Notes: generated by a model from the letters alone, not told the origin. Positions 14,768-32,736 are shown, counted from the stretch's first letter. The stretch: 48,398 nucleotides of DNA from an uncultured Myxococcales bacterium (GCA_937893795.1 CALCTH010000592.1:1-48398), one strand, 5' to 3'. Numbers and translations are program-made.

Positions 14768-17700
14768 ATGAACGGTAAACGGGCTCTTGGGCTCGCCACA
14801 TTGGCGGTCCTGCTTTGGACGACGGCCCTCGGTGGCTGGGCGGCCGCGCAGGACTCCGACGTGCGCAATGCGACGACGCCGGGAGCGTCGACGCAGACGC
14901 CGACGCCGGAGGACGACACCACCATCGAACCGGGGGAACCCCCTCCGGCGCCGGGTCCCTACGGAGACACGCCGCCCGACGAGCTTCCGCCCATCGAGGA
15001 GGATGCCGGCGAGGACGACGACGCCGAGGCGGGCACGGGGGACACGACACCGCCGCCGGCCGATGGCGCCGCGCCCGGAGCGACCGGCGACACGCCCCCG
15101 GACGGCACGGAGCCGGGACCTGCGGCCCCGGTCCCGAGAGACGTCCCGCCCCCGCCGGGCTCTGCCCCCGGCGTCGTGGCCGTGCCGACGCCTCCGGGCG
15201 GGCAGCGCACCACGCCGAACGACGTTCAGGTCCACCGGGACTCGCGCGGCTGGACCCTTCGCGTCGACGGCGAGGACCTCCTCGTGCGCGGCATGAACTG
15301 GGACTACTTCCCGATCGGCACGAACTACGACTACAGCCTCTGGTCCCAGACCGACGAGTTCATCCAGGAGGCCCTCGACTACGAGATGTCGCTGATGCAG
15401 GCGATGGGCGTGAACGCGATCCGCGTCTACGTCGGCATTCCGGCGAAGTGGATCACGTACATCTACGAGAACTACGGCATCTTCACGGTCCTCAACCACC
15501 CCATGGGCCGCTACGGCCACAACATCGACGGCGCGTACATCGCGCCCACGAACTACGCCGACGCGCGCACGCGCGAGGTGCTCCTCGCGGAGTGGCGAGA
15601 GATCGTCGCGGGCTACAAGGACGTGCCCGGCCTCCTGATGTGGCTTCTCGGCAACGAGAACAACTACGGCCTCTACTGGAGCTCCAACGAGATCGAGGAC
15701 CTTCCCGAGGCGACGCAGGGCGATGCGCGCGCCGTCTTCCTCTACTCGCTGATGGGCGAGGCCGTGGACGCGGCGCACGAGATCGACACCGGCCACCCCG
15801 TCGCGCTCGCCAACGGTGACCTCGGCTTCATCGAGCTCATCAAGGAGCACTGCCCGAACCTCGACATCATGGGCTCCAACGTCTACCGCGGGCGGAGCTC
15901 ACGAGACCTCTTCCAGCGCGTCGCCGACGAGCTCGAGCTGCCCTTCTTCTACACGGAGTTCGGCTCGGACGCCTACAACTCTCGCGAGGGTCGCGAGGAC
16001 GACCTGGCTCAGGCCGACATCAACCTCGCCCTCTGGCAGGAGGTCTACGAGCACACCGCGGGTCACGGCCGCGCGGACAACGCCATCGGCGGCCTCCACT
16101 TCCAGTGGTCGGACGGCTGGTGGAAGTACCGGCAGACCGAGAACCTCGACGTTCACGACGAGACCGCCTCCTGGGCAAACGACGCCTACCCCTTCGACTT
16201 CGTCGAGGGCGAGAACAACATGAACGAGGAGTGGTTTGGCATCTGCGCGAAGGGCCAAACCAACAACCAGGGCTTCTTCCGGCTCTATTGTCGTACGTCG
16301 TACTACGCGATCCGCGACGGCTGGGCCCTCGACCCCTACTCGCCCAATACGGACATGAGCCGTATCCGAACGCACTTCGGCAACATCCGGCCGAGGTCGC
16401 TCGAAGCGAACTACGCGGCCCAGAGCGCGGCCCGCGAGATCGAGTCCATGCGCATGGTCCGGACGGCCTTCCTCCGGATGGACCTCGAGACCTACGTCAC
16501 CGGCGGACGCAACCTCAACGTGCCCGAGCGCGCGCAAACGCGCTTCGACGACCTCGAGAGCTTCTACTTCGGCTTCGAGCTACAGCCGGCGCCGCGCTTC
16601 CGCGCGAACCTGTCCGTCAACATCCTCGGCAACTCGCCGCTGAACCCCATCGACGAGCTCTTCTTCGAGGCGCGCGGTCAGGCCCGCGATGTGGTGGACG
16701 CCGACGGCGAGACCTTCGCCGCCTCCGGTGCCGAGCGCGTGAAGCTCTACCAGGCGTCGTTCACGTGGGACGAGAGCTGGTTCCAGCTCGAGGGCTACTA
16801 CCGAACGGGCCACTACCACTGGGGCTACGAAGGCGACTTCTTCAACATCTATCCGGAGGCCTACTATCAGCAGGCCGGCGACGCCTTCAACGCGGACGTG
16901 CCCATCGGCCTCGTCTTCAGCGGTAAGCGGGCGCTCTCGGGCCTCAAGATCGCGTACGGCCCGGAAATCTACTGGGGCGCCAACCCGACGGTCATCGCGA
17001 AGTGGTACCGGGAGTCCGGTCCCTGGCAGTACTCCTTCATGCATCAGGAGGACATCGCGCAGCGTGCCAACGCGCCGACCTCCTCGGCCCTGCCCATTCC
17101 GCAGGATCGCCGCTCGACCATCTACATGTCGCGCCGCTTCGGTCCCATGACCCTCGAGCTCGGCGGCATCATGGCCGGCTCGCGTCGTGTCGGCCGGGAT
17201 TTCCGCTACGTCGTCGACGTCGACGAGGAGGCGGGACTCGGCAGCTACCTCGGGACGGGCCAGGCGCTCGTCGAGGACGAGGTCGGCTACGAGGACACCT
17301 TCGGCGCCAAGGCCAAGATCCGGCTCGAGCTGGCTCCCTTCTACTGGTACGTGCAGGGCGGCTACCGCGGCCTCGTCGCGGACGCGGGTTGGGACCCGAC
17401 GCTCACCTTCACCGGCTGGACGCTCAAGGAGAGCGGCCAGGGCAACCACTGGGCCGTGTCGACGGGCGCCGCGTACAATCTCGGGGACTTCCAGGTCGCG
17501 CCGAACGTGCTGATCCAGCGGCCGCTCATCGGGCCGCTCCCGCAGATCAACGACTTCTTCGACAACGAGACCGGGACCTTCTTCCCCGGGACCATCGCCC
17601 GAAACCAGCTCGCCGATCCCTTCTGGGTCCGGAGCAACCGCGAGACCTACGGCTTCGAGCTGCTCATCACCTACGACCCGACGCCCGCCACCTTCATGTG

Positions 17701-18268
17701 GGCGTGGGACAACGTGGCGCGTGAGGACGCGAAGTTTGCCTTCGCCCTCGACGTCACGTACCGGATCCACCCGACGATTCAGGACGCGGGCATCGGCATC
17801 TCGGCCGAGGGCTTCGTCTTCGGGTTCCCGACGTCGGCACCGGCGCAGGACCTCTGGGACGTCTCGTTCCAGACCATCAACAACTTCGGCAACGGCTGGC
17901 GCCTCGTGAACCGCATCTACGCGGGCAACGGGCAGGCCAACGGTGACGATGACCGGGAGATCATGCGTTACGGCACCCAGGGGCGCCTGACCCACGATCG
18001 CTTCGCCGCCCAGTACTTCGTCAAGATCGACGATTGGGGACCCTACGACTACTATCGGGACTTCAACTTCACCCTGCCGCTGCAGACGATGCTCGACCTG
18101 TCGTACTCGCTCGCGCCGCAGCAGTTCTTCGCGCCGTCCCAGACGCGCTTCGGCATTCGCACCACGTTCCGAACCCTGGACGAATTCTCGGAGCGTTTCC
18201 TTCCCAACATCAACGACGCCCTCGGCACCGAGTGGGAGATTCGGACCTATGTACAGATCACGATTTGA
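14768..18268 (+). CDS. Secreted TIM-barrel glycosidase fused to a C-terminal outer-membrane beta-barrel-like domain
   Basis: From ATG at 14768 behind GGAGGAGAGGGT; signal MNGKRALGLATLAVLLWTTALGGWAAAQ; Pro/Thr/Asp-rich linker; GH motifs GWTLRVDGEDLLVRGMNWDYF, LLMWLLGNENN, LPFFYTEFGSD; C-terminal ~600 aa with repeated beta-strand/aromatic pattern. Confidence 0.8.
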   Translation: MNGKRALGLATLAVLLWTTALGGWAAAQDSDVRNATTPGASTQTPTPEDDTTIEPGEPPPAPGPYGDTPPDELPPIEEDAGEDDDAEAGTGDTTPPPADGAAPGATGDTPPDGTEPGPAAPVPRDVPPPPGSAPGVVAVPTPPGGQRTTPNDVQVHRDSRGWTLRVDGEDLLVRGMNWDYFPIGTNYDYSLWSQTDEFIQEALDYEMSLMQAMGVNAIRVYVGIPAKWITYIYENYGIFTVLNHPMGRYGHNIDGAYIAPTNYADARTREVLLAEWREIVAGYKDVPGLLMWLLGNENNYGLYWSSNEIEDLPEATQGDARAVFLYSLMGEAVDAAHEIDTGHPVALANGDLGFIELIKEHCPNLDIMGSNVYRGRSSRDLFQRVADELELPFFYTEFGSDAYNSREGREDDLAQADINLALWQEVYEHTAGHGRADNAIGGLHFQWSDGWWKYRQTENLDVHDETASWANDAYPFDFVEGENNMNEEWFGICAKGQTNNQGFFRLYCRTSYYAIRDGWALDPYSPNTDMSRIRTHFGNIRPRSLEANYAAQSAAREIESMRMVRTAFLRMDLETYVTGGRNLNVPERAQTRFDDLESFYFGFELQPAPRFRANLSVNILGNSPLNPIDELFFEARGQARDVVDADGETFAASGAERVKLYQASFTWDESWFQLEGYYRTGHYHWGYEGDFFNIYPEAYYQQAGDAFNADVPIGLVFSGKRALSGLKIAYGPEIYWGANPTVIAKWYRESGPWQYSFMHQEDIAQRANAPTSSALPIPQDRRSTIYMSRRFGPMTLELGGIMAGSRRVGRDFRYVVDVDEEAGLGSYLGTGQALVEDEVGYEDTFGAKAKIRLELAPFYWYVQGGYRGLVADAGWDPTLTFTGWTLKESGQGNHWAVSTGAAYNLGDFQVAPNVLIQRPLIGPLPQINDFFDNETGTFFPGTIARNQLADPFWVRSNRETYGFELLITYDPTPATFMWAWDNVAREDAKFAFALDVTYRIHPTIQDAGIGISAEGFVFGFPTSAPAQDLWDVSFQTINNFGNGWRLVNRIYAGNGQANGDDDREIMRYGTQGRLTHDRFAAQYFVKIDDWGPYDYYRDFNFTLPLQTMLDLSYSLAPQQFFAPSQTRFGIRTTFRTLDEFSERFLPNINDALGTEWEIRTYVQITI

Positions 18269-18965
18269 AGCCCTGGCGCTCGTGGTGGCGCTGTGCACGG
18301 CTCTCGGTGGGTGCTTTCAGGACCCGGGAGATTTCGTCTTCGGCATCCAGACGACGGGACTGGAGTACGAGTTCTTCGACGAGAACGAGGGCGTCTTCCC
18401 GTCGGACATCACGCTGATCAACCCGAACAATCCGTTTAGGAACAGCCCGCCGGGAGCGGTCACGAAGTTCAGCATCCTCGCCAACGGCGGGGCCGTGGCG
18501 AGCTACTACACCTTCGCGACGTTGCTCGCGACGGAGACCACGGGCGAGCACCAGTTCTTCACGGCCCAGTCGGCCCAGCGTGTCGTCGAGTCGGGCTCCC
18601 TCGACCTGGCGACGGAGAACGAGCTCCGGGAGATCGCGATTCGCGGCTACCAGGCCATGCTCCTCAACTTCCCCGATACACGCACCTTCGCGGCCAACGG
18701 CATCGACTCCTTCGAGCTGGCCACGCTCGCCGTCCTCGGCATCGTGGACTTGGGCGGCCGCATCCCTGGTGACTGGGTGCTCGTGAGCGCACCCTCGAAC
18801 CTGCCCGTCGGCTTCGATCTCGACGGTGATGGGGAGGACGACCTCACCGCGCCGCCCGGCGTGGTGGCCGTGCGTCAGGCCGGGAGCGACCTTCCGCCAC
18901 CGGACCCCGTCGACCCTCCGGAGGAGGTGCCGACCCCGGGCTTCGACGACGAGGAGAACCCGTGA
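18249..18965 (+). CDS. Hypothetical lipoprotein
   Basis: MYRSRFEALALVVALCTALGGC lipobox; start overlaps the end of the upstream gene. Confidence 0.75.
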   Translation: MYRSRFEALALVVALCTALGGCFQDPGDFVFGIQTTGLEYEFFDENEGVFPSDITLINPNNPFRNSPPGAVTKFSILANGGAVASYYTFATLLATETTGEHQFFTAQSAQRVVESGSLDLATENELREIAIRGYQAMLLNFPDTRTFAANGIDSFELATLAVLGIVDLGGRIPGDWVLVSAPSNLPVGFDLDGDGEDDLTAPPGVVAVRQAGSDLPPPDPVDPPEEVPTPGFDDEENP

Positions 18966-19699
18966 TGCCGAACTATCGCGTGAGCCTGGTCCCCGCGCTG
19001 GCCCTGGCGCTGCTCTTGGGACCCACATGCCGCGAGGACCTTCCCACGCCGGACTACTCGGACCAGATCGGCATCGAGGAACGCATCGACGCAGGTACGC
19101 CCGAGGGCTTCCTCGCCGGCACGGATCCCCTTCAGGAGGGCGAGCAACGCCTCAACATCGGACTCGCCTATGAGGGCCGCTTCACTCGTGAGATCAGCGT
19201 CGGCACGGGGATTCGAAACGTCTTCGCCTTCGACCTCAACGGTGACGGCACGGGCGACTTCACCATCACGGGCGGCAACTCCTTCGACCGCGTCGAGGGA
19301 GTCGTCTCGACCGAGATCGTTCACGCGGGCTTCGGCTTCTGGGGGCTCGGGGTGTTTTACCGAGCGCAGGTCGACTCTTCGGGCACGCGGGGCGGTAGCG
19401 TCGACCTCTCGGGCTGGCGCGTCATGCACATGGCTTTGAAGTCCTCGGACGAGGCCTTCGAGGTCATCCGGATCGGGATGGAGTCCGGGCAATTCGAGAA
19501 CAACTTTGCCGCCCGGGTCGAAGCTACGGACTACGGCTACGTCAACGACGGGGAGTGGCATGTGGTCGACATCCCGCTCGCCGATTTCGAGGCGCAGGGG
19601 GTGATCCTTCAGGACTGCTCGGCGCCCCTCATTTTCTCCGGAGACTCCGGCCGACCGGGAGAGGTCTTGCTGATCGACGAGGTCTATTTCACCGACTGA
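18965..19699 (+). CDS. Putative lipoprotein with carbohydrate-binding-like beta-sandwich
   Basis: MPNYRVSLVPALALALLLGPTC signal; WRVMHMALKSSDEAFEVIRIGMESGQ...WHVVDIPLADFEAQGV...VLLIDEVYFTD resembles galactose-binding/CBM folds; GTG at 18962 is an alternative start. Confidence 0.65.
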   Translation: MPNYRVSLVPALALALLLGPTCREDLPTPDYSDQIGIEERIDAGTPEGFLAGTDPLQEGEQRLNIGLAYEGRFTREISVGTGIRNVFAFDLNGDGTGDFTITGGNSFDRVEGVVSTEIVHAGFGFWGLGVFYRAQVDSSGTRGGSVDLSGWRVMHMALKSSDEAFEVIRIGMESGQFENNFAARVEATDYGYVNDGEWHVVDIPLADFEAQGVILQDCSAPLIFSGDSGRPGEVLLIDEVYFTD

Positions 19700-19704
19700 A
19701 ACCG

Positions 19705-19721
19705 TCGCCCGTCACGGGCGA
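19705..19721. promoter_or_regulatory. 17-bp palindrome TCGCCCGTCACGGGCGA (terminator stem or operator)
   Basis: Seen directly between CDSs 18965-19699 and 19801-21309. Confidence 0.45.
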
Positions 19722-19800
19722 TACGACACCGTAGAGATACGGACCGCAGACGAACCCACGAACCTTTACGCCCATGGACTCGGGCGGCTTGGAGATGATC

Positions 19801-21309
19801 ATGAATGCGAATCACTGGATGAAGGTCCTGGCGATGCTGGCGCTGACGGGCGCCGTCGCCTGCGGCGACGACAGCGACGGAACGACGACGCCCCCCGAGG
19901 ACATGGGCGACATGGGCGGTGACATGGTCACCACCGACATGCCGACGCCCATGGGCGGCTGCACGGACGAGGACGCCTCCAACTTCAACCCGGACGCGAC
20001 CTTCGACGACGGCACCTGCGTCTTCACCGAGACGCTCCGCGTGGACATGGCGGGCATCGAGCTCGGCGAGGACGGCGTCTGCTTCCTGGTCGGCGACTCC
20101 ACGACCGACTGCACCGACGCCACGCAGGAGGGCGATACCAGCATCTGGGCCGCCGACGTCGAGGCCACCGGTGACGCCATCCGCGGCCGCTTCGCGCTCG
20201 GCGGGGCCACGCCCACGCCCGAGACCGTCCCCGCCGCCTGCGCCGTCGAGGGCAGCAGCCCCGGCATCCGCGAGTTCGCCGCCGACGAGATGGACCCGCG
20301 CACCCCGGTCTCCTTCAACGCCTGCGGCGCACTTCCCTTCTTCGTCGACGGGATCTACTCGGCGAGCGGCTTCATCGGTGACAGCGGCAACATCACCGTC
20401 GACGTCGATGACGGCGGCGACATCTGCCCGACCCGCGTCGACGGCGCCGACGGCGCCTGCCGTCGCTGGAGCTACACGCCCGGCGAGAACAACTTCGCCG
20501 GCGTCTTCTGGCAGTTCCCCGACGGGAACTTCGGCACGATGCCCGGCTACCCGATTCCGCAGGGAACCCGCCGCATCTCCTTCGCCGCGTGGGGTGCCGC
20601 GGGCGGCGAGTCCATCGAGTTCGGCTTCGGCGTCGGCGGCGACGTCGGTGACCCGCTCGAGGCGCGCAACACCATCACGCTCACGACGACGCCCACCCTC
20701 TACAGCATCACGCTGCCGAGCACGCCCTTCGAGGACATCGTCACGCCCTTCCTCTGGGTCGCCGCCGGCGACCAGGGTCCGGTCACCTTCTTCACGGACA
20801 ACATCGTGCTCCAGGCCGCCGACCCCGGCGCGGGCTGCACGAACCCCAACGCCGCGAACTTCAACGCGGCCGCGACGAGCGACGACGGGAGCTGCGAGTT
20901 CACCTTCGAGCTCAACGTCGACATGAGCAGCTACTCCACCAACGCCAACGGCGGCGGAACCTGCGGCAGCACGGACACCTTCACCGAGGTGTTCATCACC
21001 GGAAACTTCTGCGGCTTCTGCGTGGATCCGGGCCTTCGCCTCTTCGACGAGGACGGGGACGGCATCTACTCGCAGACCTTCACCTTCGCCGAGTCGATCT
21101 TCGACATCAACGGCGGGACCGAGCTCGAGTTCCTCTACATGGTCGACGGCTTCGCCAACCAGGAGGCGCTGCTCGACGACGTCATGTCCGGAGACGACGC
21201 CTGCGTCTCGAACACGGACGGCGCGGCCTTCGCCAACCGGGGGCTCCTCCCCACGGCGAACCCGACGGTCTTGAACCACACCTACGGGCGCTGCTCCGCC
21301 TGCCCCTGA
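19801..21309 (+). CDS. Lipoprotein with two DDGxC calcium-binding-like motifs and a putative carbohydrate-binding domain
   Basis: From ATG at 19801 with GGAG upstream; MNANHWMKVLAMLALTGAVAC; GCTDEDASNFNPDATFDDGTC and GCTNPNAANFNAAATSDDGSC; central domain similar to the C-terminus of CDS 23522-25345. Confidence 0.78.
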   Translation: MNANHWMKVLAMLALTGAVACGDDSDGTTTPPEDMGDMGGDMVTTDMPTPMGGCTDEDASNFNPDATFDDGTCVFTETLRVDMAGIELGEDGVCFLVGDSTTDCTDATQEGDTSIWAADVEATGDAIRGRFALGGATPTPETVPAACAVEGSSPGIREFAADEMDPRTPVSFNACGALPFFVDGIYSASGFIGDSGNITVDVDDGGDICPTRVDGADGACRRWSYTPGENNFAGVFWQFPDGNFGTMPGYPIPQGTRRISFAAWGAAGGESIEFGFGVGGDVGDPLEARNTITLTTTPTLYSITLPSTPFEDIVTPFLWVAAGDQGPVTFFTDNIVLQAADPGAGCTNPNAANFNAAATSDDGSCEFTFELNVDMSSYSTNANGGGTCGSTDTFTEVFITGNFCGFCVDPGLRLFDEDGDGIYSQTFTFAESIFDINGGTELEFLYMVDGFANQEALLDDVMSGDDACVSNTDGAAFANRGLLPTANPTVLNHTYGRCSACP

Positions 21310-21319
21310 CCTGAAACCG

Positions 21320-21360
21320 CGCCGGCGCCGCCTCTCCTCCGAGGTGGCGCCGGCGTTCCC
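21320..21360 (+). terminator. Strong terminator-like hairpin
   Basis: CGCCGGCGCCGCCTC-tcctcc-GAGGTGGCGCCGGCG (15-bp stem, one G-U pair) then TTCCCTTTCC. Confidence 0.7.
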
Positions 21361-21417
21361 TTTCCACCCCAACCCCCCTCCTCTGGGCGTGGCCGCGCCT
21401 GCGCCCGCACGACGTGG

Positions 21418-22680
21418 ATGACCACCGTCCCCCCGCGCCCCCTGCCCCGTCCGCCGGCGCTCGACCGAGTGCACGACTCGGCGTCGATCCGGGTGCAGCA
21501 TCGGCGCTTGCTCCTCGGACTGCTCTGGAGCCAAGCCGAGGGGTCGCGCGCGGAGCTCGCGCGCAGCACGGGGCTGAGCCGGTCGACCGTGTCTGCCATC
21601 GTCTCCGAGCTTCTGGACACGGGCCTCGTGCACGAGACGCGCGCCGGCGCCTCCACCGGCGGACGCCGGCCCATCATCCTCGCCTTTCGCGACGACGCGG
21701 CGCAGCTGATCGGCGTCGACCTCGGTGCGTCTCACGTCTCCGTCGCGCGCTCGGATCTCCGTCTTCGCATCGCGGGACAGCGCTTCGCGCGCCATGACGT
21801 GCGCGACGACCCCTGGGGCGCGCTCGCGCTCGTCGAGCGCCTCGTGCGCGAGCTCCTCGAGGAGGTCGGCGGCGTGAACTCGCTCATCGGCATCGGTGTG
21901 GCGGCCCCGAGCCCCATCGATCCGCGCCGCCCCGGGCGGCTCTCCCACTCCGTCGTGCCGCGCTGGCGCGGCATCGACCTCGTAGAGGTTCTCGGCGCAG
22001 CCTTCGGCCGCCCGGTCTTCGTCGACAACGACGCGAACGCCGGTGCGCTCGCCGAGCTCTGGTGGGGCGCCGGCCGCAGCGGCGGCGACCTGGCCTTCGT
22101 GAAGGTGGCCACCGGCGTCGGCGCCGGGCTCGTCCTGGGCGGCGAGCTCTTCCGGGGTACGGCAGGTATCGCGGGAGAGATCGGTCATCTCACGGTCGAC
22201 CCGCAGGGCCCCGAGTGTCTCTGTGGCCTGCGCGGATGCCTCGTGACCTTCGTCGGGCGCGCGGCGCTCATCGAGACCGTCCGCAAGCGTCGCGACGCCT
22301 TTCGTTCGTCCCCTCTCCACGTGGACCCGATCACCCTCGAGGGCATCGTTCGTGCGGCGCTCGATGGCGACCCGCTCGGGCAGGAGATCATCGAGGAGGC
22401 GGGCCGCATCCTGGGCGTCGGTGTGGCGAGCTTGCTCAACGTGCTCAATCCTGGACGCGTGGTGCTTTCGGGAGAGCTAGTCGAAGCGGGAGAGCTACTT
22501 CTCTCGCCGCTCCGGCAAACGGTACGGAGCCGCGCCCTCGCCGAGTCCATCGCGCACGTCGACATCGACCGAAGCACGTTGGGACCCAAGGGTGTCGTCA
22601 TGGGAGCCGCCACCCTCGTCCTTCAAGCGGCGCTCGCCGAGCCCGCCCTGATTCCCCAGATGCGCAGAGCGCAGGAGTGA
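21418..22680 (+). CDS. ROK-family transcriptional regulator (NagC/Mlc/XylR-like)
   Basis: Winged HTH SRAELARSTGLSRSTVSAIVSELLDTGLV; ROK domain with GVDLGASHVSVA, FVDNDANAGALAELWWGAGR, GEIGHLTVDPQGPECLCGLRGC. Confidence 0.92.
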   Translation: MTTVPPRPLPRPPALDRVHDSASIRVQHRRLLLGLLWSQAEGSRAELARSTGLSRSTVSAIVSELLDTGLVHETRAGASTGGRRPIILAFRDDAAQLIGVDLGASHVSVARSDLRLRIAGQRFARHDVRDDPWGALALVERLVRELLEEVGGVNSLIGIGVAAPSPIDPRRPGRLSHSVVPRWRGIDLVEVLGAAFGRPVFVDNDANAGALAELWWGAGRSGGDLAFVKVATGVGAGLVLGGELFRGTAGIAGEIGHLTVDPQGPECLCGLRGCLVTFVGRAALIETVRKRRDAFRSSPLHVDPITLEGIVRAALDGDPLGQEIIEEAGRILGVGVASLLNVLNPGRVVLSGELVEAGELLLSPLRQTVRSRALAESIAHVDIDRSTLGPKGVVMGAATLVLQAALAEPALIPQMRRAQE

Positions 22681-22682
22681 CC

Positions 22683-23522
22683 ATGCGAGAGTCGATTCGT
22701 TCCGTGCTCTTCCTCGGCCTGGCGATCGTCGCCGGCTGCGGAGAGAGCTTTACCGAAGAAGTCGTCGCGCCCTCGGGCGGTTTCACGCTGACCTTCGAAG
22801 ACCAGTTCGACGGCGCGGCGGGCTCCCCGCCGGACCTGACGAAGTGGACCTTCGACGTCGGCACCGGCGTCAACGGCTGGGGCAACGACGAGCTTCAGTT
22901 CTACACCGGCCGCCCGGACAACGTCTCCCTCGACGGGAGCGGCAACCTGGTGATCACGGCGCGCGAGGAGGAGTTCGCGGAGAGCGCCTACACCTCCGGG
23001 CGCATCAAGACGCAGGGCCTCTTCGAGCAGCGCTACGGCCGCTTCGAGGCGCGCATGCAGCTCCCGGGTCCTGGCGCCGGCCTCTGGCCGGCCTTCTGGA
23101 TGCTCGGCAACGACTTCGAGGCGGAAGGCAGCAACGTGCCGTGGCCCCTGGTCGGTGAGATCGACATCATGGAGAACATCGGCTCCGTCGAGACCGTCTA
23201 CGGCACCGTGCACGGTCCGGGCTACAGCGGCGCAGACTCCGTCGGCCGCCGGTTGACCACGCCCGGCGAGGACTACGCTGCCGAGTTCCACGTCTACCGC
23301 GTCGACTGGGACCCCTCGAGCATTCGCTGGTACGTGGACGGCGAGCAGTTCTACGTTCTGCAGGTCGGCGAGACGCCGGGTGAGTGGGTCTTCGACCGTC
23401 CCTTCTTCATGATCCTGAACCTGGCCGTCGGCGGGAACTTCCCCGGACCGCCCAACACCGCCACGCCCTTCCCGTCGGAGCTCGTCGTGGACTGGGTGCG
23501 CGTCTACGAGCGCACCCCCTGA
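22683..23522 (+). CDS. GH16-family endo-beta-1,3-glucanase (laminarinase-like) lipoprotein
   Basis: MRESIRSVLFLGLAIVAGC lipobox; WTFDVGTGVNGWGNDELQFYT; catalytic GEIDIMENIG; LNLAVGGNFPG; VVDWVRVYE. Confidence 0.93.
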   Translation: MRESIRSVLFLGLAIVAGCGESFTEEVVAPSGGFTLTFEDQFDGAAGSPPDLTKWTFDVGTGVNGWGNDELQFYTGRPDNVSLDGSGNLVITAREEEFAESAYTSGRIKTQGLFEQRYGRFEARMQLPGPGAGLWPAFWMLGNDFEAEGSNVPWPLVGEIDIMENIGSVETVYGTVHGPGYSGADSVGRRLTTPGEDYAAEFHVYRVDWDPSSIRWYVDGEQFYVLQVGETPGEWVFDRPFFMILNLAVGGNFPGPPNTATPFPSELVVDWVRVYERTP

Positions 23523-25345
23523 TGACGCTCGGCCCGCTCACGCCACGCGCCCTTCGCACGTGTGTGGCGTGCGCGGCCCTCCCCGTCGCGCTCGCTGGTT
23601 GCGGCACCTCGCGCGTGAGCGCGCCCATGGCGGCGCCGGTGCTCACGCCACGCCATGTGGAGGTCGTGCGGGACGGGGAAGGCTGGACCCTTCTCCGCGA
23701 GGGCCGGCCCTACCGAGTGCGCGGCGTCGGCTTCACCGGACGGCTGGACGGCGTTCGTTCCATCGGCGCCAACTCCGTGCGTACCTGGGGCACCGGGCCC
23801 GACGCGCGTGCCTTCCTCGACGAGGCCGAAGCACTCGGGCTCTCGGTGACGCAGGGCCTCTGGCTCGGCCACGTCGGCCACGGCTTCGACTGGCACGACG
23901 CCGAGGCGCTCGCGGAGCAGCGCGCGCGCGTGCGCCGGGACGTGCTCGCGCTCCGGGACCATCCGGCGCTCCTCTTCTGGGGGCTCGGGAACGAGATGGA
24001 GATCGACAACGACGACCCGGCCATGTGGGCCGAGGTCGGCGAGCTCGCCGCCATGGTCCGCGAGCTCGACCCCCATCACCCCATCGTCGTCGTGACGGCC
24101 GACCTCGGCGCCGCCAACGACGCGCGTCTCCGCGACTTCGTGCCCGGCGTGGTGTGGGGCATCAACAGCTATGGCGGCGCGCCGAGCGTTCCTGCCCGCC
24201 TCGCGGAGCGTGGCCACGAGGGCCCCTGGCTCCTGACCGAGGTCGGTCCCCTCGGCGATTGGGAGACAGGGCGAACGCCGTGGGGTGCGCCCGTCGAGCA
24301 GAGCAGCGCCGAGAAGCGCGCCTTCATCGTCCGGGCGCTCGCTGCCGCGGAGTCTCCCGCTGCCCTCGGCGTCTATGGCTTCGTGTGGGGACCGGGGGAC
24401 GTACCCCTCGACACGTGGTTCCCGCTCCTCGGGCCGGGAGACCGGCTCATGGAGACGGCGGCACCCTTCGCCGAGGCGTGGGGTACGGAGCTGCGCAGCT
24501 TCCCCGAGATCCGTTCCTTCGACGCGCCCTTCTCCGGCCAGAGCGTCGCGCCGGGCGCTCCGCTCCTCGCGACCCTGGAGGCCGAGGGCGCCGGCACGAT
24601 CACGTGGGCGCTTCACGTCGACCGCGCGCCCGGATCGAACCTGCCGGGGCAAGTTGCGAGTCGCGGCTCGGGCACGAGCGTTCCGCTCCTCTGCGGCGAA
24701 GGGAGCACCCGCTTCGAAGAGGCGGCGCCGCAGCGCCCCGGGCCCTACCGGCTGCTCGCCTTCGCAGAGAACGACGAAGGGGGCGTAGCCTATGCGACCG
24801 CGCGCTTCGAGGTCGCGGGCGACGAGCCACGCGGCGTCGCGCTGCCCTTCTGGCTCGACGACCACTACGCCCCGAGCGGCTTCATGGGCGACGCTCCCGC
24901 GCGGGTGACGACGGAGACGTGCCCCGTCGACGCGTGGTGTAGTGGCGCCTGCCGCCGCTTTCGCTACCGCGCCGGCGAGGCCTCGGATGGCTGGGCCGCC
25001 GTGGCCTGGATGCACCCGGAGGGGAACTGGACCGGGCGCCAGCCGGGCGTGCCGGTTCCTTCGAACACTCGGCTCGTCACCTTCCGCGCCTGGGGCGCCG
25101 AGGGCGGAGAAACGGTCTCCTTCTTCGTCGGCAACTGGGACGTCGATGGCTTCTCGCAGAAGCTCGACGACGTCGTGCTCGAGAGCTCCCCACGGAGCTA
25201 CCGCATCGAGCTTGACGCGGGGCTCCGTGACGACCTCGTCTTCGGCTTCGGTTGGGCGGCCCCGACTCCGGCGCAGGACCTCGACTTCCGCATCGCCGAC
25301 GTGACCTTCCACGCCGCCGACGCCGAGGTCATCGCCGGGGAGTGA
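23522..25345 (+). CDS. TIM-barrel glycosidase lipoprotein with C-terminal putative carbohydrate-binding domain
   Basis: Lipobox LAGC; VEVVRDGEGWTLLREGRPYRVRGVGF, LLFWGLGNEMEID, PWLLTEVGPLGDW; C-terminal ALPFWLDDHYAPSGFMGD...CRRFRYRAG... Confidence 0.8.
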   Translation: MTLGPLTPRALRTCVACAALPVALAGCGTSRVSAPMAAPVLTPRHVEVVRDGEGWTLLREGRPYRVRGVGFTGRLDGVRSIGANSVRTWGTGPDARAFLDEAEALGLSVTQGLWLGHVGHGFDWHDAEALAEQRARVRRDVLALRDHPALLFWGLGNEMEIDNDDPAMWAEVGELAAMVRELDPHHPIVVVTADLGAANDARLRDFVPGVVWGINSYGGAPSVPARLAERGHEGPWLLTEVGPLGDWETGRTPWGAPVEQSSAEKRAFIVRALAAAESPAALGVYGFVWGPGDVPLDTWFPLLGPGDRLMETAAPFAEAWGTELRSFPEIRSFDAPFSGQSVAPGAPLLATLEAEGAGTITWALHVDRAPGSNLPGQVASRGSGTSVPLLCGEGSTRFEEAAPQRPGPYRLLAFAENDEGGVAYATARFEVAGDEPRGVALPFWLDDHYAPSGFMGDAPARVTTETCPVDAWCSGACRRFRYRAGEASDGWAAVAWMHPEGNWTGRQPGVPVPSNTRLVTFRAWGAEGGETVSFFVGNWDVDGFSQKLDDVVLESSPRSYRIELDAGLRDDLVFGFGWAAPTPAQDLDFRIADVTFHAADAEVIAGE

Positions 25346-28300
25346 GTCGGACCTCGAGAACGCGCACGACGCCGTCCCGAGCGAAGACGTGGCGGCTGAG
25401 CTCGGCGCCGAGGTTCAGGCCGGGCACCTCCTCCGTGCTGCCGTCCTCGCGCCGGGCCAGGATGCGCGGCTCCCCGGCATCGGTGGTGATGATGACCGGC
25501 GTCTGCGCGAAGGTGTAGGCCATGCCACCCGCCGGGACCTCGATATCGGCGGCCTCTCCCGCCACGTCGCAGTAGCGCATCACGCCGGCCTCGCCGAGGA
25601 GCTCCGCGCCGCGCATGAGCGCGGGATCGAAGGTGAGCGAGCCGGCATCGATGCGTACGCCGACCTCACCGAGGCGCGTGAGGAGCTCCTCCTTCACCTG
25701 CCCCGTCATGCCCGGCTGCTTCGCGCCGCCGGTCTCTGGCGTGTGCGAGTAGGGGTCGGTGGGGAAGGCGCCATAGGTGGCCGGGGACTTCCGGTAGCCG
25801 AGCCCAGCCTGGATCTCGAAGTAGGCTTCGGCGAGCGCATCGAGGGTCTCGGCGGGCGCGCCCTCGTCCTTGGCGGACCAGAAGCACTCCTGCGCTGCGA
25901 GGAGCAGCTTCGAAACCATGTGCCAGTAGACGCTCCCGAGACCCTCGTAGGCGAAGAAGGTCCCCGAGCGCCCGGTGAAGGCTCGGTGATCGAAGACCTC
26001 CTCGAAGAGCCCGAGGAGCTCGTCCCGCTCCGCCGCGACGTGCTCCCGATAGCGTTCGTCCTGCGCGAGGTCGTCGAGGAGCGCCTCGAGGTCGGCCGCG
26101 TTCCGGAGGTCGCCGCCGAAGCAGGCCATGCCCTCGTAGCCCTCGACCACGATCAGGCGGTGGTCGCCGCCGAAGCGCATCTTGCTCACGAGCGGTGAGC
26201 TCGCGACGCGTGCGAGCGGGAAGCGGTTCTTCTGCAAAAAGCCGGGCAGGTCCTTGTTCGGGTAGAGCAGGTAGGTGTTCTGCGCCGGCCAGTAGAGCGC
26301 GCTCTCCCTCAGCGCGCGCAGCACCTCGAGCGCCTCGTCCGGCGTCAGCGTCCCCGCCGAGAGCATGGCGACCTGACCCTCGAGCATCGGGTCGAGGGAC
26401 TCGATGCGGGCCTCGTCACCCTCCATCACGAGCACGTCGTAGGCGTGCGCCAGCCCGTCGTCGCGGCGGCGCGCTCGGAGCGCGTGGTCGAGGTGGGCGG
26501 TGGCCACGTCGAGGAGCGCGACGAGCGAAGTCTTGGAAACGGTCGTTCGGTCGGTCGTGGGTCCTTCGTAGACCGCGTCTCGAAAACGCGTCCCCGCCTC
26601 GCCGAGGCGGTCCATGGTCGCGCGTCGCGCCCTGGGCTCGATGTCCGCCGCGAGCTGGCCCTGGGCGTCCACCAGCGCGCCCGCGACGCTCTCCGCGAGC
26701 GCGGCGACGGGCGCCGAGACCGGGAAGTCCGTGACGTCGCTGCCCTCGAGCTGCGAGCGCCAGTACGCCACGAAGCGCCGTAGGTAGGCCGCCGTCACCA
26801 CGGAGACGCCCTTGCCGGCGAGCGCATTGTTGGCGTCGTTCCACTCGGGCCGCTGCGTGTTCATCCAGATGCCCGCGCCGGGCACGAAGCTCACCAGCTT
26901 GGCGAGGAGCAGCGTGAGCAGCTTCTCGGCCATGGTGACGTGGTGCACGTCCTCGCCCGCGAGCACGAGGCGCGCGTCCGTGCCCATCTCCTTCTCGAGG
27001 GCCGTGATGGAGGCCTCCGAGTCTTCGTCGAAGTGAATCGTGTCGTAGGGATCCCGGACCGTGTCCGCGTAGCTCGCGATGCGATAGGGCACGTTCGCCG
27101 CCGTGAAGAGGGGCTCGTTCCACCAGCGCTGAAGCACTCCCGGCTGGAGCCGCTCGACGGCCTCGAGGAGGCGCTGGAGGTACACGATCTGGTGGTCGCC
27201 CCAGTAGCCGATGTTGCTCCAGGGGTTGTCTGGCTCCGGGACCTCCCACTCGATGCCCGCCCGCGTGACCCGGTAGGGGTTGTAGCCGTCGGGCGTCGTC
27301 GCGTTGAGGAACTTCGCCACGATGGCCGGACCGAAGACCGGGAAGGCGTAGGTCAGCGGCTCCCAGTTCTGGAAGATGTCCCGCCAGTTGCCCTGGTAGT
27401 CGGTGCAGGGCGTGTTGTCGGGGTTGCGGAGCTTGATGGAGAACTCGTTCCAGGGCCGGCTCGGATCCCCGTGGCGCCGGCTCCAGGTGAGCGGGAGGTA
27501 CTCGAGGGCCAGCCGCCAAAGGTCGCGGTCGCCGCTCGCCTCCGCCTGGGCGTGGAGATCCGAGGCCTCGAGCCACTCCGGCAGGGCGTCGAAGAAGGCC
27601 CGCCGGCGCTCGTGAAGGCGCCGGTTTCGCGTGCTGACGAACTCCACGAAGTCGCGGGTCTCGACGCGCGTCCCGTGCGCGAAGACCCCTCCGCGGGCGA
27701 GGTTGAAGAGCGTGTTGGCGAAGTGGTGAGTGGTCGCCAGGTCGTCGGCGCCCACGGAGATGCCGTCGCCCGCGGCGAGCGTGCGCAGCAGCCCCTCGGT
27801 GCTCGCGGCCACGTCGGCCTCGAGGGCTTCGGCGCGGGCGGCGTCGTCGTGGTCCCGGAGGAACGCGCGGAGCGTGCCGACCTCGCCGGCATTCTTCGAC
27901 ACGTCCATCGCCAGGTACCAGCGCGCCCTCCCGCCGGCCGCGAGCTCGAGGGAGGCGATGCGGAGGAAGGCGCCGCGGCGACCCCGCAGGTCGTTCTCAC
28001 CCCGCACGGCCTCGCCGCGCTTGAATGCCTCGATGCGCGCATCGCTCGTCAGGAGCGTCGTCTCGACGTCCAGCCCGGCGCCCCAGGCGACGGCGGCGCG
28101 GAGCGCCTCCGAGGGTTCGGCGCGGTCGGTGAGCGTCGAGCTCAGCGAGAAGAGCCCGATGCCCGTCGCCGGGTCCCGCTCGGTGCGCTTGTAGCCGTCG
28201 AGGAGGTTCGAATACTCGGTCTGGAGCTGACGCGTCGCCCCGTGCGGGAGCACGTTCTGCACACCGTCCAGCAGCCGGACCCGGCAGGGGCCCGCCTCCG

Positions 28301-28811
28301 CGTCCCGGGTCAGCGTGACGGTGCGAACGAAGCCGAAGCGCTCGCCCATGCGCCAGGACTGCGCGAAGGTCATGCCGAGGTCGTGGTTGCGTTCCTCGAA
28401 GCGGAGCGTGTCGCCTTCGACGCTCTTCAGCAGCGTCCGCTCGACGCGGTGCACCTGAACCCCGCGTGTCGCGAGCGGCTCCCAGAGCATGGGGCCCTCG
28501 CCGCCGTCGACGAGGAGCGCCACGAGTGGGCCCGTGCGGTCGGCGCCGCGGGTTACCTTGTCGACGGTGTCGTAAGGGAAGAGCGCGTGGTCCGCATTGC
28601 CGCGGCCCGCGCTGAGACCCCCGGTGCTCGCGATGAAGAGCCAGTGGTCCGAGGGGCTCGCGAGGGTCATGAAGAAAGGCGCCATCGCGTCCACGCCATG
28701 GATGGCGTAGTAGCGCCGGCCCTCCCGCTCCTCGAAGACGCCCTGGGTTGCTCGTTCCGGACCGAGCGGCACGTCACCGCCCAACCGAACCTGTGTTCGC
28801 TCGTCGCTCAT
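25329..28811 (-). CDS. Large cytoplasmic glycoside phosphorylase-like protein (GH94/GH149/GH161-type, likely beta-1,3-oligoglucan phosphorylase)
   Basis: ~1160 aa from ATG at 28811, no signal peptide; SIKLRNPDNTPCTDYQGNWRDIFQNWEPLTYAFPVFGPAIVAKFLNATTPDGYNPYRVTRAGIEWEVPEPDNPWSNIGYWGDHQIVYLQRLLE; role inferred from adjacent GH16/17/128 and transporter. Confidence 0.65.
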   Translation of the reverse strand: MSDERTQVRLGGDVPLGPERATQGVFEEREGRRYYAIHGVDAMAPFFMTLASPSDHWLFIASTGGLSAGRGNADHALFPYDTVDKVTRGADRTGPLVALLVDGGEGPMLWEPLATRGVQVHRVERTLLKSVEGDTLRFEERNHDLGMTFAQSWRMGERFGFVRTVTLTRDAEAGPCRVRLLDGVQNVLPHGATRQLQTEYSNLLDGYKRTERDPATGIGLFSLSSTLTDRAEPSEALRAAVAWGAGLDVETTLLTSDARIEAFKRGEAVRGENDLRGRRGAFLRIASLELAAGGRARWYLAMDVSKNAGEVGTLRAFLRDHDDAARAEALEADVAASTEGLLRTLAAGDGISVGADDLATTHHFANTLFNLARGGVFAHGTRVETRDFVEFVSTRNRRLHERRRAFFDALPEWLEASDLHAQAEASGDRDLWRLALEYLPLTWSRRHGDPSRPWNEFSIKLRNPDNTPCTDYQGNWRDIFQNWEPLTYAFPVFGPAIVAKFLNATTPDGYNPYRVTRAGIEWEVPEPDNPWSNIGYWGDHQIVYLQRLLEAVERLQPGVLQRWWNEPLFTAANVPYRIASYADTVRDPYDTIHFDEDSEASITALEKEMGTDARLVLAGEDVHHVTMAEKLLTLLLAKLVSFVPGAGIWMNTQRPEWNDANNALAGKGVSVVTAAYLRRFVAYWRSQLEGSDVTDFPVSAPVAALAESVAGALVDAQGQLAADIEPRARRATMDRLGEAGTRFRDAVYEGPTTDRTTVSKTSLVALLDVATAHLDHALRARRRDDGLAHAYDVLVMEGDEARIESLDPMLEGQVAMLSAGTLTPDEALEVLRALRESALYWPAQNTYLLYPNKDLPGFLQKNRFPLARVASSPLVSKMRFGGDHRLIVVEGYEGMACFGGDLRNAADLEALLDDLAQDERYREHVAAERDELLGLFEEVFDHRAFTGRSGTFFAYEGLGSVYWHMVSKLLLAAQECFWSAKDEGAPAETLDALAEAYFEIQAGLGYRKSPATYGAFPTDPYSHTPETGGAKQPGMTGQVKEELLTRLGEVGVRIDAGSLTFDPALMRGAELLGEAGVMRYCDVAGEAADIEVPAGGMAYTFAQTPVIITTDAGEPRILARREDGSTEEVPGLNLGAELSRHVFARDGVVRVLEVRLTPRR

Positions 28812-28825: not shown

Positions 28826-30267
28826 TCAGCCCGCGTCCGGGGCCGCCTCCGCGGCCGCTCCGCTCTCCTCCGCCGCACACCTCGCCTCGAGGTCCGTCTG
28901 CATGCCGCGGACGGTGTCGAGGTCCTGCTGGTAGAAGACCAGCCGGACGCCCGCAACCAGGTAGAGCATGGCCGGGAAGGCCGTCATCATGAGGCGAATC
29001 CCCCGAGCAGCGCCGCGTCGCTCCGCTCCTGATTCGCAACGTCGCCAAAGACCCCGAGCAGGCACGCCGAGAGATAGCCGCCGAGACCCCAGCGCAGCTT
29101 CATCGAGAGCGTCGACGCACTGAAGGAGAGCCCCCTTGCGCGGCGGTTGCGCTTCCACTCGGAGAAGTCCGCGGTATTCGCGATCATCGTCCAGAGCAGG
29201 GGGGCCGGCGGCGCGAACGCGATCTTGCCCAGGATGTCGAAGAGGTAGATCAGACCGAGCTGGTCGCCGCCCTGGAGGAACATCAGTCCGTAGAAGGTTG
29301 ATGTGAAGATCGAGCACCCGATGTAGACGTTTCGATTGCCGAAGCGGGAAGCGAGAGGCTTGGCAAGCGGAGTGGCAGCGATCAGCGCGATGAAGCCAAC
29401 GATGTTGAACTTCTCGTTCTCGCTCAGCGACGTGATGAAGCTGAGCATCTCCAGCTTGGCCTCTGGATCGATGAAGTGCGTGAAGCAGAGAGCACCCACA
29501 GCCGCCTGCATCGCGAAGAGCGTGAAGCTGATGATGCCGACCCCCACCAGCGCCACCCATCGACGGGTGGTTATGACCTTCTTCAGGTCCGCCTCGAGAT
29601 TGGTCTTCTGCCCCTCGGGCGGCTCGCTTCTTTCTCGGGTAGTGAGGAACGCGGCGAAGAAGAAGATCACGCTGATGACACCAAAGACGCTCATCGTCCA
29701 GCCGTATCCGAGCGCGTCGTCGCCACCGCCAAAGAACGTGACCAGTGCAAGGGCGCTGCCGGTCACCGCGAGCTGCCCCGCAAATGCGAAGACGAACGGG
29801 TATTGATTCAATGACGCTCGCTCACCCGAGCTTCCCGTCATGGCCCCGGCCAGGGACGAGCGGGACAGGTCGATGGCCAGATAAATGGTCATCAACAGCA
29901 TGTACGTCACGCCCGCATAAATGGCTTTGCCGTTCGGGCTCAAATCGGGAATGCTGAAGGTCATGACCGCCAGCACGTCGTATGGAATCGCCATCCAGAG
30001 GAGGTAAGGGCGGAACTTATCCCCGCGCGTCTTCGTGCGGTCCACGATGCCGCCCATGATCAGGGCCGTCACCACGTCCCAAAGGCGCGCTACGAGCAGA
30101 ATCAGTGCCGCAACCTCGGGGTCGATACCGTACACGTCCGCGTAGAAGACGAGGGCCCACATCCCCGCCATGTCCCACACGAAGTGAGACGCGGTGTCGC
30201 CGAGGCCGTGGCCGATCTTCTCTTTCAGAGAGAGCCGCGGCGTGGGGGAGGGAGACTCTTCGTTCAT
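28826..30267 (-). CDS. GPH (glycoside-pentoside-hexuronide:cation symporter, MelB-like) transporter; reading frame interrupted at 29000-29004
   Basis: Frame 30267->28987: KEKIGHGLGDTASHFVWDMAGMWALVFYADVYG...VARLWDVVTALIMGGIVDRTKTRGDKFRPYLLW...NTADFSEWKRNRRARGLSFSASTLSMKLRWGLGG; last helix continues in another frame as GIRLMMTAFPAMLYLVAGVRLVFYQQDLDTVRGMQTDLEARCAAEES to 28826. Confidence 0.85.
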
Positions 30268-30309
30268 GAAGTCCGGTCCGTAGCTGCTGTCGAGACCGCC
30301 GTCCTGAGT

Positions 30310-30322: not shown

Positions 30323-30389
30323 CTACCCGTGGCCAGGTCTTTGCGGATTTATGTCGCGAGCGTGTCTCGGTCCGGGCTACGGTTGCCGC

Positions 30390-31484
30390 ATGGGGAACCA
30401 AGGTGGCGCGGGACCGCGCCGGACGGTGGCCACGTGGGGCGTGGCCGTACTGATGGGTAGCGCCTTTGGCGCTTGCGGTGGCTCGTCGAGCGAGGCGCCA
30501 CCGGCCAACGCCGCGACCGCGTCCACGGCCGACGACGACGAGGCGACCACCCCGGCGCGTCGCCCCTTCGCGCCGATGGTGAACGGTCAGCCGGTGATCC
30601 GGGGCATCTCCTACGGGCCCTATCGCGAGGGCCAGCGGCCGGGTGGCCCCGACCCGAGCGAGGCGGAGATCCTCGAGGACCTCCGCATTCTCGCGGAGCG
30701 CTGGCAGATGCTGCGCATCTACGGCTCGCCGCCGCCGGCGGAGACGATCGTGCGCCTCGTCCGCGAGCACGAGCTTCCGCTCAAGGTGATGGTCGGCGCG
30801 TGGATCGAGCCCGAGTCGCGCGACGGCAATCCCATCCCGGCGCACGTGGCGCAGAACGCGACCCAGGTCCGCGAGGCGATTCGCATCGCCAACGCCTACC
30901 CGGACGTCGTCACGGCGGTGAACATCGGCAACGAGAGCCAGGTCTTCTGGAGCGGCCACCGCACCGCGTCGGAGGTGCTCATCGGCTACCTGCGCGAGAC
31001 GCGCGCCGCCATCCAGCAGCCCGTGACCACCGCAGACGACTACAACTTCTGGAACAAGCCCGAGAGCGCGGCCGTCGCGGCCGAGGTCGATTTCCTGCTG
31101 CTGCACGCCTACGCGATGTGGAACCGGCAACAGCTCGACGACGCCGTGGAGTGGACCGCGCGCGTGGTCGGGGACATCGCCGCCGCGCATCCCGACCTGC
31201 GTATCGTCATCGGCGAGACGGGCTGGGCCACGGTCCTCGACCCGGATGCGAGCGGTGACGAGGCGACGCAGATCGTCGGCACCGCGGGCGAGGAAGAGCA
31301 GCGCGTGTTCTACGAGGGCTTCACGGCCTGGGCCGCGCAGGCCGAGGTGCCCTATTTCTACTTCGAGGCCTTCGACGAGCCCTGGAAGGGCGGCGAGGAT
31401 CCGCGCGGCGTCGAGAAGCACTGGGGCCTCTACACGGTCGATCGGGAGCCCAAGCTCGCGATCCGCGAACCGACGACGCCCTAG
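30390..31484 (+). CDS. GH17-like beta-1,3-glucanase lipoprotein
   Basis: From ATG at 30390; lipobox FGAC; IRGISYGPYREGQ, MLRIYG, VTAVNIGNES (acid/base), IVIGETGWAT (nucleophile), YFYFEAFDEPWKGG. Confidence 0.85.
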   Translation: MGNQGGAGPRRTVATWGVAVLMGSAFGACGGSSSEAPPANAATASTADDDEATTPARRPFAPMVNGQPVIRGISYGPYREGQRPGGPDPSEAEILEDLRILAERWQMLRIYGSPPPAETIVRLVREHELPLKVMVGAWIEPESRDGNPIPAHVAQNATQVREAIRIANAYPDVVTAVNIGNESQVFWSGHRTASEVLIGYLRETRAAIQQPVTTADDYNFWNKPESAAVAAEVDFLLLHAYAMWNRQQLDDAVEWTARVVGDIAAAHPDLRIVIGETGWATVLDPDASGDEATQIVGTAGEEEQRVFYEGFTAWAAQAEVPYFYFEAFDEPWKGGEDPRGVEKHWGLYTVDREPKLAIREPTTP

Positions 31485-31491
31485 GGCCTCC

Positions 31492-32736
31492 ATGCGCCTC
31501 GTCCCTCTCGTGCTCGCGCTGGGCTGCGCTTCGGCGGCGCAGACGGCGCCGGAGCGTCGGCCCGTGGGCGCCGCGGAGAGTCCGCGGAGCGCCGATGCCC
31601 TGCGCTCCAAGCGCGGCGTCGCGTACCACTTCTGCGGCCTCGCTGGCGCGCGCGGGGAGTCGGATCTGCGCCTCATGCAGGAGGGTCTCGGCTGGACCTA
31701 CAACTGGGCCGAACGTCCTCATGCCTGCGGCGACGGGCCGAGCGTCGAAGACGCCCTCGCGCGGGCGGGGGTCGAGTTCGTCCCCATGGTGTGGGGCCTC
31801 GTGGACGAGGGGCGCCACTGCGCGAGCGGGGGGCCCTGCTTCCGCGTGGACAATCCCGGCGGCCCCGAGGCCTGCGACGAGGCCTGCGGCGACATCTTCG
31901 CCGAAGGCGAGATGGGCGGCCCCGGTGACGCCTGCTGGGAGTGCTTCCACCAGCCGATCTCGCGGGACGACTTCGCCGCGCGTGTCCCGGAGGGCGCGCG
32001 GTGGCTCCTCGGCTTCAACGAGCCCAACTTCCAGGGCCAGAGCGCATTGACCCCCGACGTCGCCGCTCGCGCCTGGGTGCACCTGGAGCACGTCGCCGAG
32101 GCGCGCGGTCTGGGCATCGTGGGCCCGGCGACGAACTTCTGCGCCACCGGCCCCGACGCGCCGCCGCCCGCTCGCTGCATCGCGCCGCGGGAGGGCGTGG
32201 AGATGGTCCACCTGGCCTGGCTCGAGGCCTTCTATGACGCCTGCAGCGCGGACGGCGTGGCCGGCCGCGATTGCCGCATCGACCATCAGGCCACGCACGC
32301 CTACGACTGCCACGCCATCGCCTGGTCCGTCGACCTCTTCGCGCGGAAGGCCGGCCGCAGCCCGCCGACCGAGGCCCACTGCGCGAGCGGTGTGCGAGAC
32401 GCTGATGAGACCGGCGTCGATTGCGGGGGGAACGCCTGCCCGGCCTGCTCGGCGTGGGCCCGCTCGCTCTTCGAGCGGCCCGTGTGGCTCACGGAGTTCG
32501 CCCATGCGCCCTGGGGCGGCTGCGAGGACGTGCCCCCCGAGGAGATGCGCTCCCTGGCGCTCGACTTCGCCCGCCGCGAGCTTCCACGCCTGGACGTCCA
32601 CCCCCGGCTCTTTCGCTACGCCTGGTTCATGCCCCGGGTGACCGGGGTGCTCGACCACGACGACCTGCTCGCCGACGACCCCGCCGGCGGCCGAACGCCG
32701 CTGGGCGAGCTCTATCTCGGCGGCGCCTCGCGCTGA
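31492..32736 (+). CDS. GH128-like endo-beta-1,3-glucanase
   Basis: From ATG at 31492; KRGVAYHF, WTYNWAE, VEFVPMVWG, WLLGFNEPNFQGQSALTPDVAARAW, VGPATNFC, PVWLTEFAHAPWGG typical of the glycosyl hydrolase catalytic core / GH128. Confidence 0.82.
   Translation: MRLVPLVLALGCASAAQTAPERRPVGAAESPRSADALRSKRGVAYHFCGLAGARGESDLRLMQEGLGWTYNWAERPHACGDGPSVEDALARAGVEFVPMVWGLVDEGRHCASGGPCFRVDNPGGPEACDEACGDIFAEGEMGGPGDACWECFHQPISRDDFAARVPEGARWLLGFNEPNFQGQSALTPDVAARAWVHLEHVAEARGLGIVGPATNFCATGPDAPPPARCIAPREGVEMVHLAWLEAFYDACSADGVAGRDCRIDHQATHAYDCHAIAWSVDLFARKAGRSPPTEAHCASGVRDADETGVDCGGNACPACSAWARSLFERPVWLTEFAHAPWGGCEDVPPEEMRSLALDFARRELPRLDVHPRLFRYAWFMPRVTGVLDHDDLLADDPAGGRTPLGELYLGGASR

Follow-up and report, generated by a model that had tools for sequence, protein, structure and literature searches.

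Laminarin is among the largest marine photosynthetic carbon pools, and SusC and SusD (SusCD) are usually credited with its uptake. Clusters of carbohydrate-active enzyme (CAZyme) genes that do without SusCD were already noted in the founding paper of glycoside hydrolase (GH) family 149 (PMC5827456), and one variant-1 laminarin polysaccharide utilization locus (PUL) without susCD is on record (PMC10108472). Metagenome-assembled genomes (MAGs) from North Sea blooms carry laminarin PULs annotated 'GH149-GH0-GH16_3', and the GH0 gene of the leading Aurantivirga MAG is among the top 10% of expressed genes (PMC10108472); a Muricauda laminarin PUL has an upstream 'GH2 beta-glycosidase' together with GH16 and GH149 (PMC13188888). 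Syntenic clusters of this kind are induced by laminarin or expressed during blooms (PMC6246565, PMC13188888, PMC10108472). Here we describe a locus at positions 14768-32736 of a 48,398-bp contig from an uncultured Myxococcales bacterium (GCA_937893795.1 CALCTH010000592.1:1-48398; this whole stretch is henceforth the window). Its first gene, which is also its signature gene (14768..18268, plus strand), is predicted to encode a 1166-residue protein with a Sec signal peptide, in which a GH158-like endo-beta-1,3-glucanase is joined to a C-terminal outer-membrane beta-barrel (henceforth the fusion). The Muricauda 'GH2 beta-glycosidase' corresponds in position to the fusion gene; judged by gene content and order the published GH2 and GH0 are probably this same protein.

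The flavobacterial GH149-'GH0/GH2'-GH16_3-GH30_1-GH17-MFS clusters of Formosa, Polaribacter, Muricauda and Aurantivirga have GH16, GH149, GH17, an MFS/GPH transporter and a lipoprotein in common with our locus. They differ from it in their regulators, which are of the Y_Y_Y/LuxR type where this locus has a ROK protein, and in that this locus adds GH158 and GH128 and has no GH30 within the cluster; the one GH30 copy of the window's genome lies on another contig. From the analysis below we propose that the fusion represents a widespread, previously unrecognised family of enzyme-coupled glucan portals, in which an endo-beta-1,3-glucanase is tied to a ~26-stranded pore, which lets laminarin-type glucans cross without SusCD in at least nine phyla, and which is labelled GH2 or GH0 in the clusters of bloom degraders. 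Taken with all its parts together, this proposal is tentative and, in our estimate, falls slightly short of an even chance.

The fusion carries the Sec signal and a linker rich in proline, then a TIM-barrel domain, followed by ~600 residues without a Pfam match. The TIM barrel (15224..16321, plus strand) was placed in clan GH-A as GH158-like by profile and Foldseek matches and by its catalytic motifs. GH158 ranked first when the PDB was searched with the single sequence or with a profile, and also when an AlphaFold2 (AF2) model was searched with Foldseek. By profile, 6pal (E 1e-7) and 9oro (E 5e-6) were matched over only part of the domain; with Foldseek, GH158 came top (E 3e-14) with GH157 close behind. 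In BuGH158, the acid/base pair N136 and E137 and the nucleophile E220 have been shown by mutation (PMC7157763), and these residues correspond to N296, E297 and E397 of the fusion. E297 (codon 15656-15658, plus strand), in an NE motif, is thus the predicted acid/base and E397 (codon 15956-15958, plus strand), in a TEFG motif, the predicted nucleophile; both motifs are invariant in 61/61 homologues. These matches point to an enzyme that is GH158-like and distantly related to the family. A 'GH2 beta-galactosidase-like' label was discarded, as the PF02836 match is weak and below cut-off and both profile and fold favour GH158.

A helical linker (16391..16447, plus strand; AF2 helix, A1 residues 399-417) leads from the enzyme to the C-terminal domain (16457..18262, plus strand), which AF2 modelled as 26 antiparallel strands (pLDDT 87, pTM 0.83) without a plug and which ends in an EWEIRTY..I motif. 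Foldseek matched this domain to outer-membrane barrels, among them PfeA, FepA, BtuB, Occ porins and AlgE, with E-values down to 2e-11 and a TM-score of at most 0.39 against any solved barrel, a result that defines the class of fold without singling out a particular relative; against viral proteins it returned only generic porin and GH5 matches. Within-strand hydrophobic alternation, averaged over the alignment, was 1.27 compared with 0.67 +/- 0.09 in 2000 shuffles (maximum 1.00), and mean column identity of the barrel across phyla is 57%. Because the signal peptide, the AF2 model, the Foldseek matches and the amphipathic alternation agree, we regard the C-terminal domain as very probably a barrel of the outer membrane. 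Reading it as a TonB receptor was ruled out by the missing plug and PF00593 domain: the fused protein matched neither the TonB_dep_Rec nor the Plug Pfam family, even at E 1.

The AF2 model also bears on orientation. Of the connections between strands, the eight that span at most three residues each lead from an even strand to the odd strand after it, and the long loops run from odd to even strands. Short turns in other outer-membrane barrels are periplasmic, and if this holds here, both ends of the barrel chain, and hence the enzyme, face the periplasm. As far as the model can be trusted, the fused enzyme would thus rather probably act on the periplasmic side.

We scanned 85,488 species genomes for the fused protein and found at least 590 relatives. 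The best 80 of these match residues ~150-1166 at 45-57% identity in frames unbroken across the match, and they span nine named phyla (Myxococcota, Bacteroidota, Gemmatimonadota, Ignavibacteriota, Balneolota, Calditrichota, Krumholzibacteriota, Eiseniibacteriota and Delongiibacteriota) as well as GN15 and KSB1; phylum ranks were taken from MAG titles, and an isolated unexpected assignment may stem from faulty binning. Cultivable carriers include Flavobacterium paronense, Flavivirga aquatica, Halpernia humi and Cloacibacterium rupense. The tree built from the fused protein has a supported branch with Myxococcota on one side, and the window's protein is nested in a supported Myxococcota clade (SH-aLRT 99). 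Close to the window's taxon the distribution is patchy: among 39 genomes, the fusion occurs in the window's own genome and, in full or in part, in four family relatives. A query with the barrel alone found a match in 10/98 Myxococcota genomes, in frames of 1036-1227 residues with one frame-shifted exception, and no weaker matches above threshold in these genomes; it likewise found one copy each in 20/150 Bacteroidota-centred genomes (frames of 1046-1084 residues), plus one extra weak and degenerate match (E 7e-9). A barrel without the enzyme was never found in the 98 Myxococcota and 150 Bacteroidota-centred genomes. The frame-shifted copy, in one Myxococcota genome, is split into frames of 963 and 171 residues on the same contig (L116 and L117), reflecting either decay or sequencing error.

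The surroundings of the fusion gene are conserved as well. For the 44 loci whose two flanks each reach 7 kb or more, tblastn with the window's proteins placed GH16 near the fusion in 44/44, GH17 in 32/44, GH149 in 29/44, ROK in 15/44 and GPH in 14/44, counts that are lower bounds as divergent copies are missed; Pfam searches of neighbouring open reading frames (ORFs) added GH30, MFS and Y_Y_Y regulators. Immediately after the fusion gene comes a lipoprotein gene, both in Myxococcota and in 19 loci of the Fibrobacteres-Chlorobi-Bacteroidetes (FCB) group, and the usual order in Flavobacteriia is regulator, fusion, lipoprotein, GH16, GH149, GH17 and a GH30-like gene. The fusion and GH16 are constant, with an inner-membrane importer that varies between GPH, a GPH-GH3 fusion and dpp-like ABC genes, the last of these named in Myxococcota loci from the start of the sequence and from context. 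Fusions of MFS and GH17 are known in Formosa. At L034:12411-15746, a GPH/MFS_2 symporter and a complete GH3 beta-glucosidase share a single ORF, a parallel suggesting that the idea of fusing importer and enzyme recurs. At L017:8304-9752, in a same-family relative, a gene that by eye looks like a GH1-like beta-glucosidase immediately precedes the fusion gene; the cytoplasmic end of the pathway appears variable.

No protein of the window's locus matched the TonB_dep_Rec, Plug or SusD Pfam families, the adjacent susC/susD pair of a canonical Sus-like PUL is absent at the locus, and no SusD was found in the whole genome, whose 7 TonB-dependent barrels all lie on other contigs. Among relatives, SusC and SusD are not among the 25 commonest Pfam families matched by 136 neighbouring ORFs, a tally that can hide single occurrences. 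Such an occurrence is L064, a Bacteroidales MAG in which a SusC/SusD pair (L064:41-4547) precedes the fusion gene by 5-10 kb, the one clear case of SusCD within 10 kb. TonB receptors occur somewhere in 20/20 relative genomes tested; in Flavobacterium paronense, the nearest receptor among the matches listed is ~45 kb from the fusion gene. We relied on Pfam scans of the neighbours here, as a home-made TonB-receptor hidden Markov model was insensitive (2/5 held-out controls found). The preliminary description of the locus as free of SusC/SusD thus holds for the window and for nearly all relatives checked, L064 being the exception.

The window is one contig of a 6.4-Mb MAG in 738 contigs (92% complete), with a GC content of 65-75% per 2-kb block. 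Flanked by an F-type ATP synthase operon (7994-14282) on one side and a Ser/Thr kinase gene (32712-34877) on the other, the locus comprises eleven genes, which form three transcription units. The ATP synthase operon has its b-type subunit genes in a tandem pair (window 7994-9195). Unit 1 (plus strand, 14768-25345), in which several genes overlap by a few bases, encodes the fusion, three lipoproteins (LP2, LP3 and LP4), a ROK regulator, GH16 and GH158; unit 2 (minus strand, 30267-25329) encodes the GPH symporter and then GH149; unit 3 (plus strand, 30390-32736), divergent from GPH, encodes GH17 and GH128. All genes of the set previously placed at 14768-32736 are present there as intact, GC3-biased ORFs, and the families first assigned by eye to GH16, GH17 and GH128 were borne out by Pfam and by matches to sequences of known structure. 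The GH16 lipoprotein (22683..23522, plus strand; GH16_3 type; EIDIME motif; Pfam E 1e-23) has bacterial laminarinases as its nearest matches (3atg, E 3e-73). The GH17 lipoprotein (30390..31484, plus strand), with GNE and GETGW motifs, matches PF00332 (E 3e-11, 43.8 bits against a cut-off of 28.2) and the GH17 structure 6fcg (E 7e-28). The GH128 lipoprotein or secreted enzyme (31492..32736, plus strand), with NEPN and TEFA motifs, matches PF11790 (E 9e-35, 120.8 against 21 bits) and the structures 6uax and 6uaw.

Both of the two further TIM-barrel glycosidases in the preliminary description prove GH158-like, the fusion distantly and the lipoprotein at 23522..25345 (plus strand) clearly: it matches 9oro (E 4.6e-66 across residues 42-423) and BuGH158 6pal (E 4e-35), and by this similarity over the whole catalytic domain we assign it to GH158. 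What had been called a phosphorylase-like enzyme (25329..28811, minus strand; 1160 residues) scores 1375.4 bits against a cut-off of 1150 with the NCBIfam equivalog NF058639 and 1005 bits with 6hq6 over 1128 residues (29-1156), and it contains the WND motif; judged by sequence it is unambiguously a true GH149 beta-1,3-glucan phosphorylase, predicted to be cytoplasmic because it lacks a signal peptide. The GPH-family (MFS_2) sugar:cation symporter (28987..30267, minus strand; PF13347 E 2e-62; TIGR00792 270.6 bits against 231.35), the ROK-family transcriptional regulator (21418..22680, plus strand; PF00480 E 9e-54) with its N-terminal helix-turn-helix (HTH_24/IclR HTH) and the three lipoproteins were likewise recognised correctly at the outset. 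The genome also holds 4 matches to phosphoglucomutase-family genes. Its sole GH3 match is a 373-residue, NagZ-sized frame that we take for NagZ, and phosphorolysis, not a GH3 beta-glucosidase, is therefore the likely cytoplasmic step.

LP2 (18249..18965, plus strand; lipobox LGGC) shares 20 bp of coding sequence with the fusion gene, and its homologues are kept beside the fusion gene across Myxococcota loci. LP3 (18965..19699, plus strand), whose Cys is invariant among homologues, is related, over its C-terminal part, to the corresponding end of the lipoprotein encoded after the fusion gene in Bacteroidota (hhalign probability 94.5, E 7e-8). LP4 (19801..21309, plus strand, by ORF translation; start at 19801 or 19819) contains two C-x-DP-A-x-N-F-N-x-A-T-x-DDG-x-C-like repeats and shares with the GH158 lipoprotein a domain that resembles a carbohydrate-binding module (CBM) and has no Pfam name (20329..20823, plus strand, in LP4; C-terminal, ~24839-25321, in the GH158 protein; 37% identity over 170 columns, BLASTP E 3e-24). 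This domain is a candidate for a new beta-1,3-glucan-binding module. By tblastn, LP4 is also linked to a GH158-like protein encoded outside the locus in the same genome (L016). A perfect palindrome, GTTCGCCCGGCGAAC (14519-14533), precedes the fusion gene by ~235 bp; it occurs as a single copy, with no second copy above chance within the window, and is a possible ROK operator; scans of the window for sigma-70 promoters and terminators gave nothing informative.

Given six enzymes that represent five beta-1,3-glucan families, and given the synteny across nine named phyla, the substrate class originally suggested, beta-1,3-glucan of the laminarin, curdlan or fungal-glucan type, is very probably right. 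That the locus is a complete system for using this glucan, with a single fused protein serving the outer-membrane step, we consider somewhat better than an even proposition. We infer a route in which the polymer would be cut and held by lipoprotein enzymes (GH16, GH158, GH17 and GH128) together with the lipoproteins of glucan-binding type, the ~26-stranded barrel of the fusion would form the outer-membrane passage in place of SusCD, and the N-terminal GH158-like endo-glucanase would trim entering chains, probably at the periplasmic mouth. The GPH symporter would then import laminari-oligosaccharides, cytoplasmic GH149 would phosphorolyse them to glucose-1-phosphate, thereby keeping the bond energy, and the ROK protein would repress the cluster. 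The surface hydrolysis of the preliminary description is likely for the lipoprotein enzymes, but for the fused enzyme strand topology favours the other side. Its GPH import and phosphorolysis are the expected route; its fused barrel stands as a predicted structure, with a pore role that is plausible, and that the barrel takes part in glucan passage we hold to be marginally favoured.

Several points weigh against the portal proposal: no solved barrel resembles this one closely, a plugless 26-strand barrel would leak unless closed by loops or by the enzyme, the identity of GH2/GH0 with the fusion draws on position only, the genome's 7 TonB-dependent barrels could carry glucan, and L064 indicates that fusion and SusCD systems can coexist. 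Moreover, a linker helix threading the lumen, as in autotransporters, would place the enzyme outside. The barrel would then be an anchor that displays the enzyme at the surface, with oligosaccharides entering through general porins or TonB receptors. Enzyme-bearing type V autotransporters, with an N-terminal enzyme and a C-terminal outer-membrane barrel in one chain, are established, and their known translocators have 12-16 strands. The helix before strand 1 in the AF2 model fits such display, as do the TonB barrels on other contigs and the normal presence of surface endo-glucanases in SusCD systems (PMC7157763). Yet 26 predicted strands are far from the type V number, the strand pattern places the N-terminus of the barrel in the periplasm, and a mere anchor needs no long, highly conserved barrel where the neighbouring enzymes are anchored as lipoproteins; we judge display unlikely, at about one chance in four.

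The locus might instead be an ordinary laminarin PUL with its SusCD or TonB receptor dispersed elsewhere and the fusion as an accessory enzyme. Dispersed laminarin genes are known in Maribacter (PMC11345257), and the receptors in all 20 relatives tested and the SusCD pair near the fusion in L064 would suit this; the lack of SusD in the window's genome, the ~45 kb to the nearest listed receptor in F. paronense and the absence of SusC/SusD from the families commonly matched by neighbouring ORFs speak against it, and we find it improbable. Still less credible, and indeed very improbable, is that the enzymes serve the lysis of fungal or algal prey or the turnover of self-made beta-1,3-glucan, with uptake secondary. 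Myxococcota include predators, and GH16, GH17, GH128 and GH158 include enzymes attacking curdlan and fungal glucan besides laminarin-acting ones, but a cytoplasmic phosphorylase and a symporter point to feeding, and most carriers are Bacteroidota or further members of the FCB group, with the gene in settings already known from laminarin use.

Should glucan indeed enter through the outer membrane by way of the fused barrel, the portal proposal would explain how SusCD-less laminarin clusters work, give a function and a fold to the conserved 'GH2'/'GH0' gene, and provide one marker gene for the SusCD-less strategy in many phyla; the fusion would be a possible pore with a built-in glucan-cutting enzyme. 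Compared with type V autotransporters, the fusion likewise joins enzyme and barrel, but with 26 predicted strands and in a catabolic operon. The Bacteroides 1,3GUL (BuGH158, PMC7157763) has GH16_3 and GH158 endo-glucanases and surface lipoproteins in common with our locus, but uses SusC/SusD, GH3 and a hybrid two-component system (HTCS) where this locus has the fused barrel, GH149 and ROK. The GH149 clusters of types I and II (PMC5827456) also combine GH149 with GH16, GH17 and an MFS_2 importer, type II with a TonB receptor and type I with an ABC transporter, and an enzyme-barrel fusion went unrecognised there. Our searches of the open-access literature found no description of such a fusion, or of a barrel on GH2/GH0. 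Clusters without SusCD are not new; what appears to be new is that they have in common a conserved fusion of enzyme and barrel.

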